Assembly: GCF_000730285.1 (NCBI RefSeq)
Contig: NZ_CP007174.1
Coordinates: 1,922,001-1,986,000, forward strand
Source of the DNA: Candidatus Nitrososphaera evergladensis SR1
Lineage (GTDB): Archaea; Thermoproteota; Nitrososphaeria; Nitrososphaerales; Nitrososphaeraceae
DNA: 64,000 nt
Direction of reading: 5' to 3'
The position numbers and the translations under genes were made by a program. The notes under the pieces were generated by a model. That model was not told the origin of the DNA. It did no database searches and saw nothing but the letters and a program-made list of their open reading frames with translations. Positions 1,774 to 28,656 of this stretch are shown here, one piece after another (the first letter of the stretch is position 1; every line of letters starts with the position of its first letter).

Positions 1774-2909
1774 CTGGCAGGAAAATGATGACTTCGTCAT
1801 CCACAGCCTTTGCAAGCGGCAATAGTAGCAGTAGTAACGACAAGATTCAGGTCATGATAGTCAACGATTCGATGTACATGCGCAGCCTGTTTAGCGACTT
1901 GATATCCACAAGCCAGAGGCTCCAGGTGTCTGACACCGCAAACGACGGAGTCGATGCCTTGAGGAAGGTCCGCAAGAGCAGGCCGGATGTAGTGCTCCTT
2001 GACTTGGAGATGCCCAACATGGACGGGCTTTCGTTCATAGAAAACGTCATGCCCGCAGACCCTCTGCCAGTGGTCCTTGTGAGTAGCTACGGGCAAAAAG
2101 GAGCGGACGTGGTCTTTGACGCTTTGGAAATGGGCGCAGTGGACTTTGTGCCAATACCGCAGGACGACCCAGAAAAGATGCGCGACCTCCGCAGCACGCT
2201 TGTATCAAAGTTAGAGATAGCCGCGCAGACAAAAAACCGCCTGCGGCTGAAGATGGCAAAGGCTGCGCGCAAGCAAGCAAGCACGGCTGTACGTGCTCGT
2301 ACGCCGCCTTCTTTAAAGACTATGGCCAATGGCCATGAAGATTCTGCAGTTGTGGTCATTGGCGCTTCCACAGGAGGCCCAGGCGTGGTAGGCGAAATAA
2401 TGTCCAGGCTTTCTGCAGACTTGCCGGCAGGAGTCCTCATAGTGCAGCACATGCCCGAAGGATTCACAAAGAGCTTTGCAGACCGCCTTAACGGGATTTC
2501 CAAGATGCCAGTACGGGAGGCAAGAGAAGGTGACGCCATCAGGCCAGGCACGGCGCTGCTTGCGCCGGGGGACTACCACCTGCTGGTCAAGCCGTCTCGC
2601 GTAGTGGAGCTTAACAAGTCTCCAAGAAGGTTCGGGGTCAGGCCGGCCATAAACATGAGCATGGTTTCTGCCTCGCAGGTGTATGGCCGCAAGACTGTCG
2701 GGGTGCTGCTGACAGGCATGGGGCATGACGGAGCCTTTGGCATGAAGATGATCAAAAGAAAGGGCGGGATGACTGTCGGCCAGGACGAGTCTTCTTCGGT
2801 CGTCTTTGGCATGGCCAAGGCGGCGGCAGAGATGGACGCAGTGGACCGGCTGCTTCCAACAGAGTTGATACCAGAAGAGATCGAGAGGATGGTGGCAAGC
2901 GTACAATGA
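1770..2909 (+). CDS. cheB: Chemoreceptor glutamate methylesterase CheB
   Basis: 379 residues with an N-terminal receiver domain (LLDLEMPNMDG carries the phospho-acceptor Asp) joined by a basic linker to the CheB methylesterase domain. The catalytic elements are visible: Ser in GASTGGPG, His in VQHMPEGFT, and Asp in GMGHDGA. The enzyme removes methyl groups from, or deamidates, receptor glutamates/glutamines during adaptation. The listed start is a GTG overlapping the cheY stop; in-frame ATGs at 1785 and 1788 are alternatives that would cost only five or six residues. The stop overlaps the ATG of cheA (ATGA). Confidence 0.95.
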   Translation: MTGRKMMTSSSTAFASGNSSSSNDKIQVMIVNDSMYMRSLFSDLISTSQRLQVSDTANDGVDALRKVRKSRPDVVLLDLEMPNMDGLSFIENVMPADPLPVVLVSSYGQKGADVVFDALEMGAVDFVPIPQDDPEKMRDLRSTLVSKLEIAAQTKNRLRLKMAKAARKQASTAVRARTPPSLKTMANGHEDSAVVVIGASTGGPGVVGEIMSRLSADLPAGVLIVQHMPEGFTKSFADRLNGISKMPVREAREGDAIRPGTALLAPGDYHLLVKPSRVVELNKSPRRFGVRPAINMSMVSASQVYGRKTVGVLLTGMGHDGAFGMKMIKRKGGMTVGQDESSSVVFGMAKAAAEMDAVDRLLPTELIPEEIERMVASVQ

Positions 2910-4519
2910 GCGACGACAAATCTGCGTACAGGGACCTCTTTGTGCAGGAGGCGCACGAACACGTGCAGAACATGAACCAAGCGCTCCTAAAGCTCGAAGA
3001 AGATCCAAAGAACAAGGAGCACCTAGATTCCGCTTTCCGCTCGGCCCACACGCTCAAGGGAATGGCAGCGACTATGGGCTATGACCAGATAAAGGAGCTT
3101 TGCAAGGCAATCGAGGAGCTGTTTGACAAGTTCCGCAAAGGCGAAGAAAAGATGTCGTCAGAGATGGCCAGCTACCTCTTCAAGTGCTTTGACGCCGTGC
3201 AAGAGATGGTAGACGACGAGAACAAGAAGGTAAACATCGAGCAGTACCTAAGCGACCTGCGCAACCCCGCGGCGATGGGCGGCGGCAACGCCGCAGGCCA
3301 AGAGGGCGCCTCTCAACAGCAACAGCAACAGCAGCATTCTGCCCTCCCCCAGACCATAAGGGTCAAGATGCAGGATCTGGACGCGCTCGTGGACCTCGTG
3401 GGCGAGCTTTTGATAGCCAAGATGCGCCTTGAGCAGATGGTCGGCAACACCACGACTGACAACAGGGTGCGGCATACCTTTATGAGCCTTGGAAGGCTCG
3501 TCTCTGACCTGCAGTACCAGACCATGAAGCTGAGGCTGGTGCCGGTTGAGCAGATCTTTAACAGGTTCCCCCGCATGATAAGGGACCTTTCTTCAAGTCA
3601 GGGCAAGAGCGTAAAACTGGAAATTGAGGGTCTTGGGATAGAGCTTGACCGCACCGTCCTTGACGCCATCACCGATCCGCTCCTCCACATGCTGAGAAAC
3701 GCCGCGGACCACGCCATAGAAATGCCGGAAGAAAGAGAGGCCGCCGGCAAGCCTCAGACTGGAACAATCAAGCTGATCGCTTCAAAGGTGGGCGACAGGG
3801 TCATGATAACCGTTGAAGACGACGGCAGGGGCATAGATCTTGAAAAGGTCAAGGCAAAGGCAATAGAGAAAAAAATAGTCACCAAGGAAGAGGCAGACTC
3901 GATGTCAGAGCAGGACGTCCTTGACCTGCTAGGCACCCCGGGCCTGTCCACCGCAAAGCAGGTCACCGACATATCCGGCCGCGGAGTCGGCATGGACGTC
4001 GTGTTCAGCCAGATCGAGTCAGTTGGAGGCCAGGTCAAGATTGAAACCAAAAAGGGCCAGGGAACGCGCTTTACCATGATAATACCACTCAGCCTTGCCA
4101 TAATAGGCGGGCTTTTGGTCACGATAAGCAACGAAAAGTACGTGCTGCCACTGTCAAGCGTCATTTCCACGATGCGCGTGGACAAAAAAGACGTCAGAAT
4201 AGTCCACGGCAAAGAAGTGATACTGTTCAGAGAACAGGTGGTCCCTCTGCTCAGGACGGGCAAGACCTTGGGGATATCCCAACAGCAACAGCAGCAGGCT
4301 GACAACAATAATGATGATGACGACAACCGCTACCTGACGGTTGTAATAGTAAACAAGAACGGCAGGCCGTACGGCCTTATCGTTGACGAGTTTGAGAGCA
4401 AACAGGAGATAGTCGTAAAGCGCCTGGATAGTTCCAGTGCCCCATCTTCAGTGTCGTCTGAAGCTACGATACTTGGCGACGGGAAGGTGGCGCTGATACT
4501 GGACCCGGCGCGGCTGTAG
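2906..4519 (+). CDS. cheA: Chemotaxis histidine kinase CheA lacking a P2 domain
   Basis: 537 residues. The HPt domain (about 1-115) carries the phospho-acceptor His48 in SAHTLKGMAATMGY. After a Gly/Gln-rich linker (about 130-150) the dimerisation domain begins directly, followed by the HATPase with N box HMLRNAADHAIE, G1 EDDGRGID and G2 GRGVGMD, and a C-terminal CheW-like P5 domain containing a second Gln/Asp-rich insert. No P2 CheY/CheB-docking domain can be recognised between HPt and dimerisation domain, so this is a short CheA. Overlap ATGA with cheB. Role: ATP-dependent phosphorylation of CheY and CheB. Confidence 0.95.
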   Translation: MSDDKSAYRDLFVQEAHEHVQNMNQALLKLEEDPKNKEHLDSAFRSAHTLKGMAATMGYDQIKELCKAIEELFDKFRKGEEKMSSEMASYLFKCFDAVQEMVDDENKKVNIEQYLSDLRNPAAMGGGNAAGQEGASQQQQQQQHSALPQTIRVKMQDLDALVDLVGELLIAKMRLEQMVGNTTTDNRVRHTFMSLGRLVSDLQYQTMKLRLVPVEQIFNRFPRMIRDLSSSQGKSVKLEIEGLGIELDRTVLDAITDPLLHMLRNAADHAIEMPEEREAAGKPQTGTIKLIASKVGDRVMITVEDDGRGIDLEKVKAKAIEKKIVTKEEADSMSEQDVLDLLGTPGLSTAKQVTDISGRGVGMDVVFSQIESVGGQVKIETKKGQGTRFTMIIPLSLAIIGGLLVTISNEKYVLPLSSVISTMRVDKKDVRIVHGKEVILFREQVVPLLRTGKTLGISQQQQQQADNNNDDDDNRYLTVVIVNKNGRPYGLIVDEFESKQEIVVKRLDSSSAPSSVSSEATILGDGKVALILDPARL

Positions 4520-24037: not shown

Positions 24038-24970
24038 TTAAAAACGGATCGCTTGCACGGCGGCAGTAGTAGCAGGAGCGGCAAGGCGCGCCCTGCAGAC
24101 ATCCTTCTTTTTCTTTCTGGCGCGCACGACGGCATTTGGCGATGATGACAATATCATCAGTTCGCGCTGGCCCGTCCGGCGCGATGCGTTGCAGTTTATC
24201 AGGCGCTCGACCCTTGCAGTCTTTATCGTAAAGTCGCCGTACAGGTCGCGTATTTTGCGCGTGTCGGAATTAGAGAGGATTACAGCGCATCCAAGGTCGT
24301 GCAGGCGTACAAACTCGCCGGCAAGCTCCACATGGTCATGCCAGCCAAAACTCTCACGGGTGTAATCTACAAAGTTTGCAGTCTTGGTCAGCGGCAAATA
24401 GGGAGGGTCAAAGTACACGACGTCGCCTTTTGCGCACGACCTCGTTGTCTGGGTGTAGCTTGCGTGTGTTATCCTGACGCCGTCGCGCGCAAGCACGCCG
24501 GCGGCTGAAAAAAGCGCGTCTCGGTTGCATATCGTCGGGCGCTCGTACGTGCCGTGCGGGACGTTGAACCTGCCGGACCGGTTAACGCGAAAGAGTCCGT
24601 TGTAGCAGGTCCGGTTCAAAAAGATCATCCTTGCGGCCCGCTCGACCCCGCTTGTAGGCTCTAGGTCGCGTACAGAGTAATAGTACCTCTCCCGTCCTGC
24701 ATAGTAGTTTTGCTGGTGCTCTTGCAGCAACTCGACCAGCTCGGCGGTCCTGTCGCGCACCTGCAGGTACACGTTAATCAATTCGTAATTGGAATCAGAA
24801 AGCACTGCTTCAAAGCGCGGCCTTGACTGTACAAGGTGAAAGAACAGGGCCCCGCTTCCGAGAAAGGGCTCAAAGTAGCGGTCGAGCCTTTCAGGGCAGA
24901 ACTGGGCAAGCATGTGCACAAGACGGCGTTTGCCGCCAGCCCATTTCAGAAAAGGCCCCACGTTTTCCAA
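24038..24970 (-). CDS. D12-class DNA adenine-N6 methyltransferase (Dam-like)
   Basis: About 310 residues from the TTG at 24970, which gives the family's usual beginning just before GPFLKWAGGKRRL (SAM motif I); the open frame extends to a TTG at 25057 without family resemblance. Motif IV is DPPY in GDVVYFDPPYLPLT, and RYFEPFLGSGALFFHL, NRTCYNGLFRVN and VILSNSD are standard for the D12 family. It probably methylates adenine in a short palindrome such as GATC. A basic, Ala-rich tail of about 35 residues after MILSSS is unusual. No restriction endonuclease gene is adjacent, so it looks solitary. Confidence 0.88.
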   Translation of the reverse strand: MENVGPFLKWAGGKRRLVHMLAQFCPERLDRYFEPFLGSGALFFHLVQSRPRFEAVLSDSNYELINVYLQVRDRTAELVELLQEHQQNYYAGRERYYYSVRDLEPTSGVERAARMIFLNRTCYNGLFRVNRSGRFNVPHGTYERPTICNRDALFSAAGVLARDGVRITHASYTQTTRSCAKGDVVYFDPPYLPLTKTANFVDYTRESFGWHDHVELAGEFVRLHDLGCAVILSNSDTRKIRDLYGDFTIKTARVERLINCNASRRTGQRELMILSSSPNAVVRARKKKKDVCRARLAAPATTAAVQAIRF

Positions 24971-25127
24971 GATGCATTGAGATGTGTTTTCAAGCTTAAA
25001 AAAAGCCGGGTGCAAACAGTACGATCCCGGGCGATCTAAACCCTGACTTGCGCACAACTTTTGTCCTAAAACATACTGACTAGTGCTTTTATACGTACAG
25101 CATGGACAACCCAGAGTCTTTCAAAAC

Positions 25128-25671: not shown

Positions 25672-26445
25672 GTGTTGCTGTACGACGCGCACGTGCACCT
25701 GACAGACAGCGAGTACTCTGGCTATCTCGATCACGTATTTTCGTCTCTTTACGCAATGAGGATTGTAGCGTGCTCGGTCGCAGTCGACCTAGAGACCACC
25801 AAGAAAAGCTTGCGGCTGTTCAAGGACCGCAAGGATGTCATAAAGCAGTTTGTCGGCATCCACCCCGAGTTTGCCGCCAGAGAAGACCTAGACAAGTTTG
25901 TGCAGGTGGCAAGGGACAACATGGCATCGATTGACGGTATTGGCGAGATAGGGCTGGACGGCACGTACGAGGCAGAAAGAGGCGTCCCGTACGAGAGGCA
26001 AAAGCAGGTGTTTCATGCCATGCTTGCGCTTGCAGAATCTGAAGGCAAGCCGGTGTCGATACATTCCCGGCGGGCCCTTGACGACATACTTGCCATCCTG
26101 CCGTCTTTTCGCCTAAGGGGTGCGCTCTTGCACTGGTTTGCAGGAAGCAAAAAGCAGCTTGCCAGGTCGATGGACATGGGCCTGTACGTGTCGTACGGCC
26201 CGGCGCTTGTCTACTCTGACGACAAGAAAGTGCTTCTGAAACACACGCGCCGTGACCGCTTTCTTGTCGAAACAGACGGGCCGGTCAGGTATTCGAGGTG
26301 TTTTGAAGGCAAGCCGGCGCTTCCCACGTCGTTTCTGCCAAGCGTCGTCGCCTCTGCCGCCGCAGTCTTGGGCGTCTCGTACGGCGAGGCCGCGGAAACG
26401 ACAGCCCGAAACACAGAAGCGTTCCTTGGGTCACAACAATTATAA
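25672..26445 (+). CDS. TatD-family metal-dependent hydrolase
   Basis: 257 residues from the GTG at 25672 (or TTG at 25675); the frame is open far upstream but family resemblance begins at LLYDAHVHLTDSEY, whose HxH is the first metal ligand pair. Further ligands: Glu in GIGEIGLDG, His in KPVSIHSRRA, His in ALLHWFAG, Asp in FLVETDGP. TatD proteins act as 3'-5' exonucleases in DNA or RNA quality control. A ttttaat element (25642-25648) about 26 bases before the GTG is a likely TATA box. Divergent from the histone gene. Confidence 0.88.
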   Translation: MLLYDAHVHLTDSEYSGYLDHVFSSLYAMRIVACSVAVDLETTKKSLRLFKDRKDVIKQFVGIHPEFAAREDLDKFVQVARDNMASIDGIGEIGLDGTYEAERGVPYERQKQVFHAMLALAESEGKPVSIHSRRALDDILAILPSFRLRGALLHWFAGSKKQLARSMDMGLYVSYGPALVYSDDKKVLLKHTRRDRFLVETDGPVRYSRCFEGKPALPTSFLPSVVASAAAVLGVSYGEAAETTARNTEAFLGSQQL

Positions 26446-26483: not shown

Positions 26484-26735
26484 ATGAACCGAATAAAGCG
26501 CATTTCCACCGAGCTCCTCCAAAAGTACCCTGACAAGTTTGGGCTCGAATTTGACGCTAACAAAAAGGCCCTCAGCGAAGTGGCCGTCGTCAAGTCCAAG
26601 GTCCTGAGAAACGAGCTTGCAGGCTACATAACCTCCCACCTTCGCAAAAAGGCGGCGCAGGAAAAGGCATCCTCTGCCATGGCTGAAGAAGAGGAAGCGG
26701 AAGAAGCAGGGACCGAGGAAGAATCGACCGAATAA
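26484..26735 (+). CDS. rps17e: 30S ribosomal protein S17e
   Basis: 83 residues. The core NRIKRISTELLQKYPDKFGL, then NKKALSEVAVVKSKVLRNELAGYIT is the eukaryal/archaeal S17e signature. The C-terminus is a Glu-rich tail (about 67-83) longer than the core needs. It is a small-subunit ribosomal protein absent from bacteria. A ttataaatt TATA-like element lies at 26441-26449. The downstream ThiS-Cgi121 fusion starts seven bases after its stop, so they are probably cotranscribed. Confidence 0.95.
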   Translation: MNRIKRISTELLQKYPDKFGLEFDANKKALSEVAVVKSKVLRNELAGYITSHLRKKAAQEKASSAMAEEEEAEEAGTEEESTE

Positions 26736-26741
26736 GCGCAT

Positions 26742-27521
26742 ATGATAAAAATCAGGCTGCTGGGCGGCGCAAAAAAAGCCGTCGGCAGGTCTTCTCTCGA
26801 CTTTGACAGGAAGCAGGCATCTGTTTCAGAGATTTTGACGTTTTTGCAAGGCATCTCGCAAGAGCCAAGGCTCTTGCAGGCAGGCAACCTCATTATAGCG
26901 GTAAACGGAGTCGACTCGCAGGCGCTGTCCGGCCCAGACACCATGGCCAAGGAGGGCGATACGGTTACAATAGTCACGGTGGTGCATGGCGGGATGGAAG
27001 ACAACAGGTTGTCGTTGTGGAATGTCCTTGTGGCTGGCGTGTACAAGTTAGACGATAAGGACACAGGCAAGCTGCTTGACAGGCTGCGGGCGGAAAATCC
27101 GAAAGTGATGGTGCAGGCAGCCGATGCGGCCGCAGTTTACGGGCGCGACCACGCGCTTGGAGCCCTCGACATTGTCCTTGAAGCGATGGCAAGAAACATC
27201 ATGATTGCAAACAGGCCGGAGACAGAGGTGCTGCTGCGCCTTGCGTGCACAGACCAGATAGCAGAGGCCTTGAAAAGGGCGCGCCTTAGAGAAGGCGAGG
27301 CAGGATGCTTTATTGCGTTTTCAACTGACGCGCAGGCCTTGAAAAAATTTGGCGAGCAGATCTCGCACGAGTTTACGCTTGACGACTCGGTCATTTTGCA
27401 GAGCAGAGAAAAAAGAAAAGCGCTTGCAAAAACAGTCGGCATTTCCCAAGAGGTTGATGACGACAAAGAATTCCTTGATTTGCTGCTAGAGCGTGCAGCG
27501 ATACTGATAAGGAAGAACTAG
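26742..27521 (+). CDS. ThiS/MoaD-like domain fused to KEOPS subunit Cgi121
   Basis: 259 residues with two domains. Residues 1-84 are a beta-grasp, ubiquitin-like domain (MIKIRLLGGAKKAVG, LIIAVNGVD, EGDTVTIVTVVHGG) that ends in the diglycine expected at the C-terminus of ThiS/MoaD/SAMP proteins, here at 83-84. Residues 91-259 match Cgi121: NRPETEVLLRLACTDQIAEALKRAR and CFIAFSTD. Cgi121 is the KEOPS subunit that brings tRNA to the complex for t6A37 synthesis. The neighbouring Sua5 makes the threonylcarbamoyl-AMP substrate, supporting the assignment. Whether the protein is cleaved after the GG is unknown. Confidence 0.85.
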   Translation: MIKIRLLGGAKKAVGRSSLDFDRKQASVSEILTFLQGISQEPRLLQAGNLIIAVNGVDSQALSGPDTMAKEGDTVTIVTVVHGGMEDNRLSLWNVLVAGVYKLDDKDTGKLLDRLRAENPKVMVQAADAAAVYGRDHALGALDIVLEAMARNIMIANRPETEVLLRLACTDQIAEALKRARLREGEAGCFIAFSTDAQALKKFGEQISHEFTLDDSVILQSREKRKALAKTVGISQEVDDDKEFLDLLLERAAILIRKN

Positions 27522-27524
27522 TTG

Positions 27525-28055
27525 TCACTCGCCTGACTCGCGCTTTGCGACAACAGAGCTAAAGAACTTGTCCGGCGTTATCACCGAGACGCCGGCGTGC
27601 CTGCCCACGATTTCAACGAGCACCACCCATGACGGGTTTTCAAGGTCAACCTTGCGCTTGACCTCCTGCGCGACATAGTCGATTATTTCACGAGAGTGCA
27701 AGTCGCTGTGGCGCTTTTCCACCATTATCTTGAACGACGCGCCCTCAGGTATCCTTGCCGCCATCGACCCCACAGCGCCTGAAATGTCCTCAAGCTCGGC
27801 AGGCACGACCTTCTCTATCGGAAGCACGCGCATGACGTAGCGGATTTCCCACGGGTCAGAAGCCACAAGCTCTTTTAGTTTTTCAACGACCGTAACAGGA
27901 TGAATTGACGTTCTGGCAAGTATGATTCCTGCAACCCGGGTTATCTGGACCTCGGCGTCGGGGTCGCCAAACGCGTCAAGGAGGTCGAGAATTTCGTCAG
28001 ACGCGTCCTCTTCGCGGAACCTCGGACTTGACACTAGAAGGTTAAAGTCATTCAT
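27525..28055 (-). CDS. THUMP-domain RNA-binding protein
   Basis: 176 residues from the ATG at 28055, preceded by ggagaa; the upstream ATG at 28076 lies further inside sua5. The sequence [72 protein letters not shown] and PSWVVLVEIVGRHAGVSVI is the THUMP pattern of Tan1-type tRNA acetylation adaptors. It lacks a catalytic domain. Probably binds the tRNA acceptor arm and guides a modification enzyme such as the ac4C acetyltransferase. Overlaps sua5 by eight bases, so the two are coupled. Confidence 0.82.
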   Translation of the reverse strand: MNDFNLLVSSPRFREEDASDEILDLLDAFGDPDAEVQITRVAGIILARTSIHPVTVVEKLKELVASDPWEIRYVMRVLPIEKVVPAELEDISGAVGSMAARIPEGASFKIMVEKRHSDLHSREIIDYVAQEVKRKVDLENPSWVVLVEIVGRHAGVSVITPDKFFSSVVAKRESGE

Positions 28056-28656
28056 TTTCTCCAAGCACCTTTTCAATTTCGCCGGCGCTTATTGCGCCCT
28101 GCCGGATTATCCTGGGAATTCCAGTTACATCAACTATGGTAGACTCTAACCCGATGAGCGCGGCCTTGTCGACAAGGAGGGCGTCATAGCCTTCAATCGC
28201 CACTTCCTGCGCGCTCCTAGGCGACGGCCTGCCGGAAGGGTTTGCGCTCGTCCCAACAATGTACTTGCATATCGACAGAAGGTTCAACAGGCACTTGTTT
28301 GCAGGGACGCGGACCGCAAGGCTTTGCCTGCCTGCCAGCACCCTGTCAGAGATCTTGGGGTCTGCAAGCGGGGCGACAATCGTAAGTGCGCCGGGCCAGA
28401 ATTTTTTTGCAAGCGCCCTGCCGGCCTTGCCCAGTTTTACTATTTTCTCTGCGTCCTTCATGCTTGCGGCAAGCACGGGAAGGGGCTTGTCCTCCTGCCT
28501 TCCCTTTATCTCAAATATCCTCGCAACAGAAGAATCGCTGTACGGGTCGCACCCTATCCCGTAGACGGTGTCTGTCGGAAAAACAACCACCCCGCCTTCT
28601 TTTACAATGGATGCGCACCGGACCACCCCTTCAGGGCAGTCGAGGATCTCTGTCAA
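28048..28656 (-). CDS. sua5: Threonylcarbamoyl-AMP synthase Sua5/YrdC
   Basis: 202 residues, the short YrdC-type form without the C-terminal Sua5 domain. Diagnostic segments: [33 protein letters not shown] (substrate-binding K-x-R), [28 protein letters not shown] and [10 protein letters not shown]-like sequence in [14 protein letters not shown]. It makes threonylcarbamoyl-AMP from Thr, bicarbonate and ATP for t6A37 formation by KEOPS. Neighbours encode Cgi121 and a THUMP protein, so the area is a tRNA-modification group. Confidence 0.93.

Follow-up and report, generated by a model that had tools for sequence, protein, structure and literature searches.

Why does a ubiquitin-like (Ubl) domain that ends in a diglycine run on, without a stop codon, into Cgi121, a subunit of the KEOPS complex? 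The window analysed here is a stretch of 64,000 nucleotides from the closed 2.95 Mb genome of Candidatus Nitrososphaera evergladensis SR1, and its positions 26742–27521 (+ strand) hold one open reading frame (ORF) with an ATG start, encoding 259 amino acids. A first-pass annotation had described a beta-grasp domain ending in GG at residues 83–84 and followed by Cgi121. Profiles from Pfam and NCBIfam, the DNA at the joint and the folds predicted by AlphaFold2 all bear this out. Residues 1–84 (26742–26993) are a Urm1/MoaD/ThiS-type Ubl domain, identified by Pfam ThiS (residues 4–84, E 1.4e-7; 32.4 bits against a cut-off of 22.5), by structural matches of the AlphaFold2 model and by the family profile. 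The Cgi121 domain is matched by Pfam CGI-121 at residues 108–253 (27063–27500; E 6.9e-10; 39.6 bits, cut-off 25), by NCBIfam NF011465 (KEOPS subunit Cgi121; 74.6 bits, cut-off 40) and by Foldseek. The tail motif H82-G83-G84 lies inside the protein (26985–26993), and the point after G84 is the predicted cleavage point on the basis of conservation, split relatives and the model; it is followed by a linker, residues 85–100 (26994–27041), that is variable by column entropy. The joint reads GTG CAT GGC GGG ATG GAA, so that H82, G83 and G84 are followed in frame by M85. The gene is present in a single copy in the closed genome, and its closest relatives (G132 at 85% identity, others at about 55%) keep the frame intact, which excludes sequencing error as the source of the fusion. 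The joining of an N-terminal ThiS/MoaD/Urm1 beta-grasp domain, ending in HGG, to a Cgi121 domain is confirmed.

The AlphaFold2 model was computed from a 62-row alignment of fusions. It contains two confident domains (mean pLDDT 93.5), and pLDDT falls below 50 only at residues 82–86. Because this is the sole stretch of such low confidence, a packing role for the HGG is unlikely. Residues 1–84 are predicted to take the beta-grasp fold, a point on which the first-pass description depended. When the two halves were compared with the PDB by Foldseek, the N-terminal half matched MoaD (1fm0), Trypanosoma brucei Urm1 (2k9x) and SAMP1 (2l52), and the C-terminal half matched KEOPS-bound Cgi121 structures (8up5, 8unk and 7kjt; for 8up5_C, E 2.5e-8 and a TM-score by target of 0.78). 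The C-terminal half agrees with Cgi121 in both profile and fold, and the N-terminal half has the beta-grasp fold and the diglycine at the domain end that define Urm1, SAMP and MoaD proteins. The best PDB match of the Ubl family profile (A2) was Thermoplasma Ta0895 (3.5e-9), the tail of which is AGG. The Urm1 proteins of T. brucei (7e-9), yeast (2.7e-8) and S. solfataricus (2.5e-7) were matched better than MoaD (8.6e-4). These scores and the HGG tail would place the Ubl nearer to Urm1 than to MoaD, a placement that comes from profile matches and not from a family tree.

The fusion itself is already known, a point absent from the first-pass annotation. Makarova & Koonin (2010; PMC2948915) describe it as conserved in all thaumarchaeal genomes of that time, note cotranscription with S17 and suggest that KEOPS is SAMPylated or that the fusion acts in tRNA modification. 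The window gene, with the same fusion and the same S17 neighbour, is a member of this set. We found no later paper treating the fusion further in the open-licence literature, and a literature search found none on Nitrososphaera with Ubl, E1 and JAMM. New here is a comparative test on about 140 genomes. Whereas the 2010 survey has every genome fused, we find many split relatives and an HGG kept in all but one fusion, and we propose a precursor that is cut.

Of 400 genomes of the class searched at the protein level, 340 gave matches, and profile HMMs made for the survey were used to read loci from about 140 genomes. Of these loci, 70 were fused and 56 split, and others held a lone Ubl or a lone Cgi121. 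All 58 loci read in family f2 (Nitrosopumilaceae-type, including Nitrosotalea, Nitrosopumilus and Nitrosopelagicus) are fused; the others are in genus g1 (8, the window included), f13 (1), f22 (2) and f24 (1). Family f1 is mostly split, as are nearly all of the remaining families, and even the window's own genus has split members (G137, G169 and G121). The fusion is not universal, and the separate genes that the first-pass annotation had proposed to look for do occur. In the nearest split loci (L013 in G137 and L014 in G169), the stop codon of the Ubl overlaps the start of Cgi121 in a GTG/TGA junction. That this junction is common to both genomes, together with the number of split loci, rules out sequencing error as the cause of the splits. 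At the same joint, a GTG within the GGTGGC codons could start Cgi121 while TGA ends the Ubl, an arrangement that suggests translational coupling.

Some searches and loci were kept apart from these counts. Genome contigs searched with a single protein gave no matches, while a profile search of them did; one of its two patterns contains HGG, and it was left out of the count of HGG conservation. Loci L096 (G021), L103 and L104 (G018) have no adjacent Cgi121 match, at least two have other tails, and they were left out of the fused and split counts. In L096, the Ubl has the tail VVGG within a 238-residue ORF and is probably a MoaD-MoaE fusion.

In nearly all genomes listed from other classes of the phylum, the Ubl and Cgi121 matches are apart from each other; sometimes they are adjacent. 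Separate genes are therefore probably the older state. The few Ubl tails read from these classes are all HGG, mostly right at the stop codon. The Cgi121 tree needs at least seven changes between the fused and split states, yet the AU test rejects neither a single clade of the f1 fusions (p 0.21) nor a single clade of the f1 and f2 fusions (p 0.094), which leaves one and several origins of the fusion both compatible with the data.

The first-pass annotation had staked its reading on the GG being kept in orthologues, and it is kept: the interior HGG is present in 69 of the 70 fused genes. The single exception is L064 in G271 (f13), which reads LHCS at this position. G83 is encoded by GGC in 20 fused genes, GGT in 16, GGA in 24 and GGG in 9, and the third codon positions of both glycines are fully mixed. 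An HGG kept over such mixed codons indicates selection on the protein and not recent common ancestry. Only 15 of the 259 columns are invariant in the alignment of 62 fusions, H82, G83 and G84 among them, and across 42 diverse Ubls, fused and free, the HGG makes up three of the four invariant columns. Averaged over columns, entropy rises from 0.00 bits in HGG through 1.54 in the Ubl body and 1.82 in Cgi121 to 2.51 in the 16 columns after HGG; the linker is more variable than all three other regions compared. In 59 of 69 fusions, GG is followed by a small residue (S, A, T or G). Among split or unlinked genes, 54 Ubls end exactly after GG and 15 end 1–9 residues later, so that the diglycine encoded in the interior of the window gene is terminal in 54 relatives.

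The surroundings of the gene are also conserved. The gene of ribosomal protein S17e (26484–26735, +; Pfam Ribosomal_S17e, E 4e-15) lies 6 bases upstream of the fusion, and a TatD-family nuclease (25684–26445, +, start approximate; Pfam TatD_DNase, E 2e-47) stands further upstream in the same conserved gene block. Downstream and convergent are a THUMP-domain protein (27525–28076, −; Pfam THUMP, E 1.9e-9), kept in most loci, and Sua5/TsaC (28048–28656, −; TIGR00057, 148 bits, cut-off 123), the L-threonylcarbamoyladenylate synthase that performs the first step of t6A synthesis. TatD and Sua5/TsaC are conserved neighbours across the surveyed loci, and S17e is found upstream of the Ubl on the same strand in 128 of them. 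In genus g2, the Ubl is still behind S17e and Cgi121 is elsewhere, beside THUMP. Further upstream in the window, near an archaeal histone gene, an ORF at 24038–25057 (−) reads like a Dam-type adenine DNA methyltransferase.

The partner of the Ubl also varies. In L078 (G282), a phosphoribosyltransferase takes the place of Cgi121 at this HGG joint, and the Cgi121 gene is separate and comes next. In families f12 and f18, a phosphoribosyltransferase gene sits between Ubl and Cgi121, and in L204 (G032; 2308–3933) an E1 gene lies directly 3′ of the fused Ubl-Cgi121 gene. The Ubl seems to join whatever gene comes next with its working tail retained, and Cgi121 as the partner may be incidental. Separately, we note that a phosphoribosyltransferase gene precedes Cgi121 in L066 and L087 (f18), L086 and L102 (f12), L314–L317 and L320–L322. 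This adjacency spans several deep families and other classes of the phylum, and the enzyme is a possible unexplored neighbour of KEOPS.

In 18 near-complete fused genomes, the window's included, Pfam finds two ThiS-type domains each, one fused to Cgi121 and one fused to E1. Separate thiS/moaD genes, which the first-pass annotation had also raised, exist as free Ubl genes in the split relatives, and none was detected in these 18 genomes with the Pfam model and a family-specific profile; the latter gave just two extra, very weak matches (E 0.06 and 0.38). The second Ubl of the window's genome (G000) forms the front of an E1 (MoeB/ThiF) protein (G000:C1:57296-58249; L002 1447-2781) and keeps AVAGG before the E1 domain, a joint common to the other Ubl-E1 fusions read. 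Because its diglycine is also interior, both Ubls of this genome are locked in fusions. A third weak ThiS match (L004) was rejected as a free Ubl: it is the C-terminal part of a 412-residue GTPase-like protein adjoining a Kae1-like gene.

The enzymes that could act on the Ubl are widespread. JAMM proteases were found in 42 of 45 genomes tested (21 of 22 with the fusion), E1 in 11 of 12 fused genomes tested and a TIGR00269 thiolase match in all 38 genomes tested. The window's genome holds two JAMM/MPN+ copies, both with an intact E...HSHP-x6-S-x2-D pattern. In G271, the genome with the one fusion that lacks GG, neither E1 nor JAMM nor a second ThiS-family domain was detected, the thiolase is retained, and the assembly is 82% complete; the joint loss of GG, E1 and JAMM is a hint only. 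In G008, Cgi121 is present, Ubl and JAMM were not detected and the E1 match is marginal; Cgi121 is thus independent of the Ubl. No clear E1 match was found in the split genome G169.

We propose, with a probability of about 0.62, that the ORF is a Urm1 precursor polyprotein that is cut after HGG, probably by a JAMM metalloprotease, to give a modifier or sulfur carrier and Cgi121. The conservation pattern and the split relatives suggest such a processed precursor. The N-terminal half would be archaeal Urm1 in its Nitrososphaeria form, a carrier of sulfur and ubiquitin-like modifier with HGG as its working end, and the C-terminal half the tRNA-binding KEOPS subunit Cgi121. Loss of the stop codon after HGG would have joined the two genes, which stand in an operon behind S17e. 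One of the two JAMM/MPN+ metalloproteases would most likely cleave after G84 and expose a C-terminal glycine for adenylation and thiocarboxylation by the single E1 (MoeB/UbaA type). The released Ubl may then serve tRNA thiolation, protein urmylation or both, and the same cut would free Cgi121 for KEOPS.

Cutting after G84 is the simplest reading because the HGG is under selection and predicted to be disordered and no other free Ubl was detected. Activation of a Ubl by E1 requires a free C-terminal glycine carboxylate; that E1 and the TIGR00269 thiolase are kept while both Ubls are fused supports cleavage. Of the three roles the first-pass annotation had offered for the fusion, release of a modifier by proteolysis after GG appears the best supported, given an HGG that is near-invariant, predicted to be disordered and placed at the stop codon of split genes, and JAMMs that are intact. 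The HGG kept at the phosphoribosyltransferase joint and the E1 gene directly after the fusion in G032 would also count in favour of a precursor, and the joint absence of GG, E1 and JAMM in G271 is suggestive only. On the other side, JAMM presence is not specific, as most genomes with a free Ubl have one too, and the split genome without a clear E1 also counts against a precursor.

In eukaryotic ubiquitin–ribosomal protein precursors, a Ubl forms the N-terminal half and is released after GG; the window fusion has the same layout, whereas the partner and the protease class differ. HvJAMM1 cleaves SAMP1-MoaE behind the glycine of the Ubl; this cleavage is also observed in vivo, and without it the fusion has no activity (PMC4443979). 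The Deinococcus enzyme DRJAMM cuts MoaD-MoaE (PMC8832034). These proteins likewise have an N-terminal Ubl, an interior GG, a working partner and an available JAMM; their partner is MoaE and their cleavage known, whereas the window fusion has a KEOPS subunit and predicted cleavage. Urm1 of Sulfolobus acidocaldarius is free, ends in H82-G83-G84 and is conjugated to lysines (PMC4569737). The Sulfolobales Urm1 proteins (Saci_0669 and SiRe_1713) share the C-terminal HGG with the window Ubl and, according to PMC2948915, the S17 gene neighbour; unlike the window Ubl they are free proteins, and the same paper gives the Sulfolobales as lacking Cgi121. Since Sulfolobus Urm1 expressed in yeast is thioactivated and supports urmylation but not tRNA thiolation (PMC12645042), a thiolation role of the freed Ubl is uncertain.

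The fusion might instead stay intact, with the Ubl permanently attached to Cgi121 as an additional domain that shapes or regulates KEOPS, and with the HGG as a binding motif or flexible hinge. Its stability in all 58 surveyed f2 loci is not readily explained if the product is always cut, translation and tRNA modification are suggested by its neighbours S17e, Sua5 and THUMP, and cutting by a protease is so far a prediction. Yet the HGG is the model's one unstructured piece, and a hinge has no need of an invariant HGG beside a highly variable linker. The free Ubl of split relatives ends at this HGG, the two genes are separate in many relatives and far apart in genus g2, and in L078 the Ubl is joined to another protein. 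We consider an intact fusion unlikely, and with it the first-pass suggestion of a structural part of KEOPS. A precursor that is cut agrees better with these observations.

That the Ubl carries sulfur to, or modifies, specifically KEOPS or its tRNA is improbable, although Cgi121 binds the CCA end of tRNA (PMC7718258), Sua5 is next door, and the gene of the Ubl frequently lies beside that of Cgi121, in further classes of the phylum as well. The fusion would here bring both partners to one tRNA and couple t6A37 with thiolation, a link that Makarova & Koonin (2010) had sketched, that the first-pass annotation had proposed and that our survey does not demonstrate: where the pair is broken, the Ubl stays with S17e and not with Cgi121, one genome has a phosphoribosyltransferase as the partner, and G008 has Cgi121 with no Ubl match, no JAMM and a marginal E1. 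In addition, a glycine in a peptide bond cannot be thiocarboxylated, so that cleavage would still be needed first. Very doubtful is a last possibility, in which internal starts of translation still yield the two proteins partly apart, the joined form being tolerated as a by-product. An ATG does follow the GG codons directly in the window gene, and the overlapping junction of G137 and G169 would couple translation, but a methionine follows GG in just 2 of 69 fused genes. Cgi121 on its own could come from internal starts, whereas a free Ubl with GG at its end could never do so, and the retention of HGG would go unexplained. The precursor reading accounts for it and predicts a product of 84 residues with HGG at its end.

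Ammonia-oxidising archaea rank among Earth's most abundant microbes, and literature searches found no experimental work on their ubiquitin-like system. If the precursor reading is true, the gene would be an archaeal counterpart of ubiquitin–ribosomal protein precursors, in a genome whose every detected Ubl is locked in a fusion, and archaeal JAMM proteases would gain a natural substrate. More tentatively, and at somewhat less than even odds, the sole Urm1 of Nitrosopumilaceae, and of some members of the window's genus, may be synthesised as the N-terminal half of a KEOPS subunit from which it must be cut free, and one protease step may set the supply of both a modifier and the t6A machinery. 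These archaea would then have a precursor system of the ubiquitin type with a tRNA-modification subunit as the partner.
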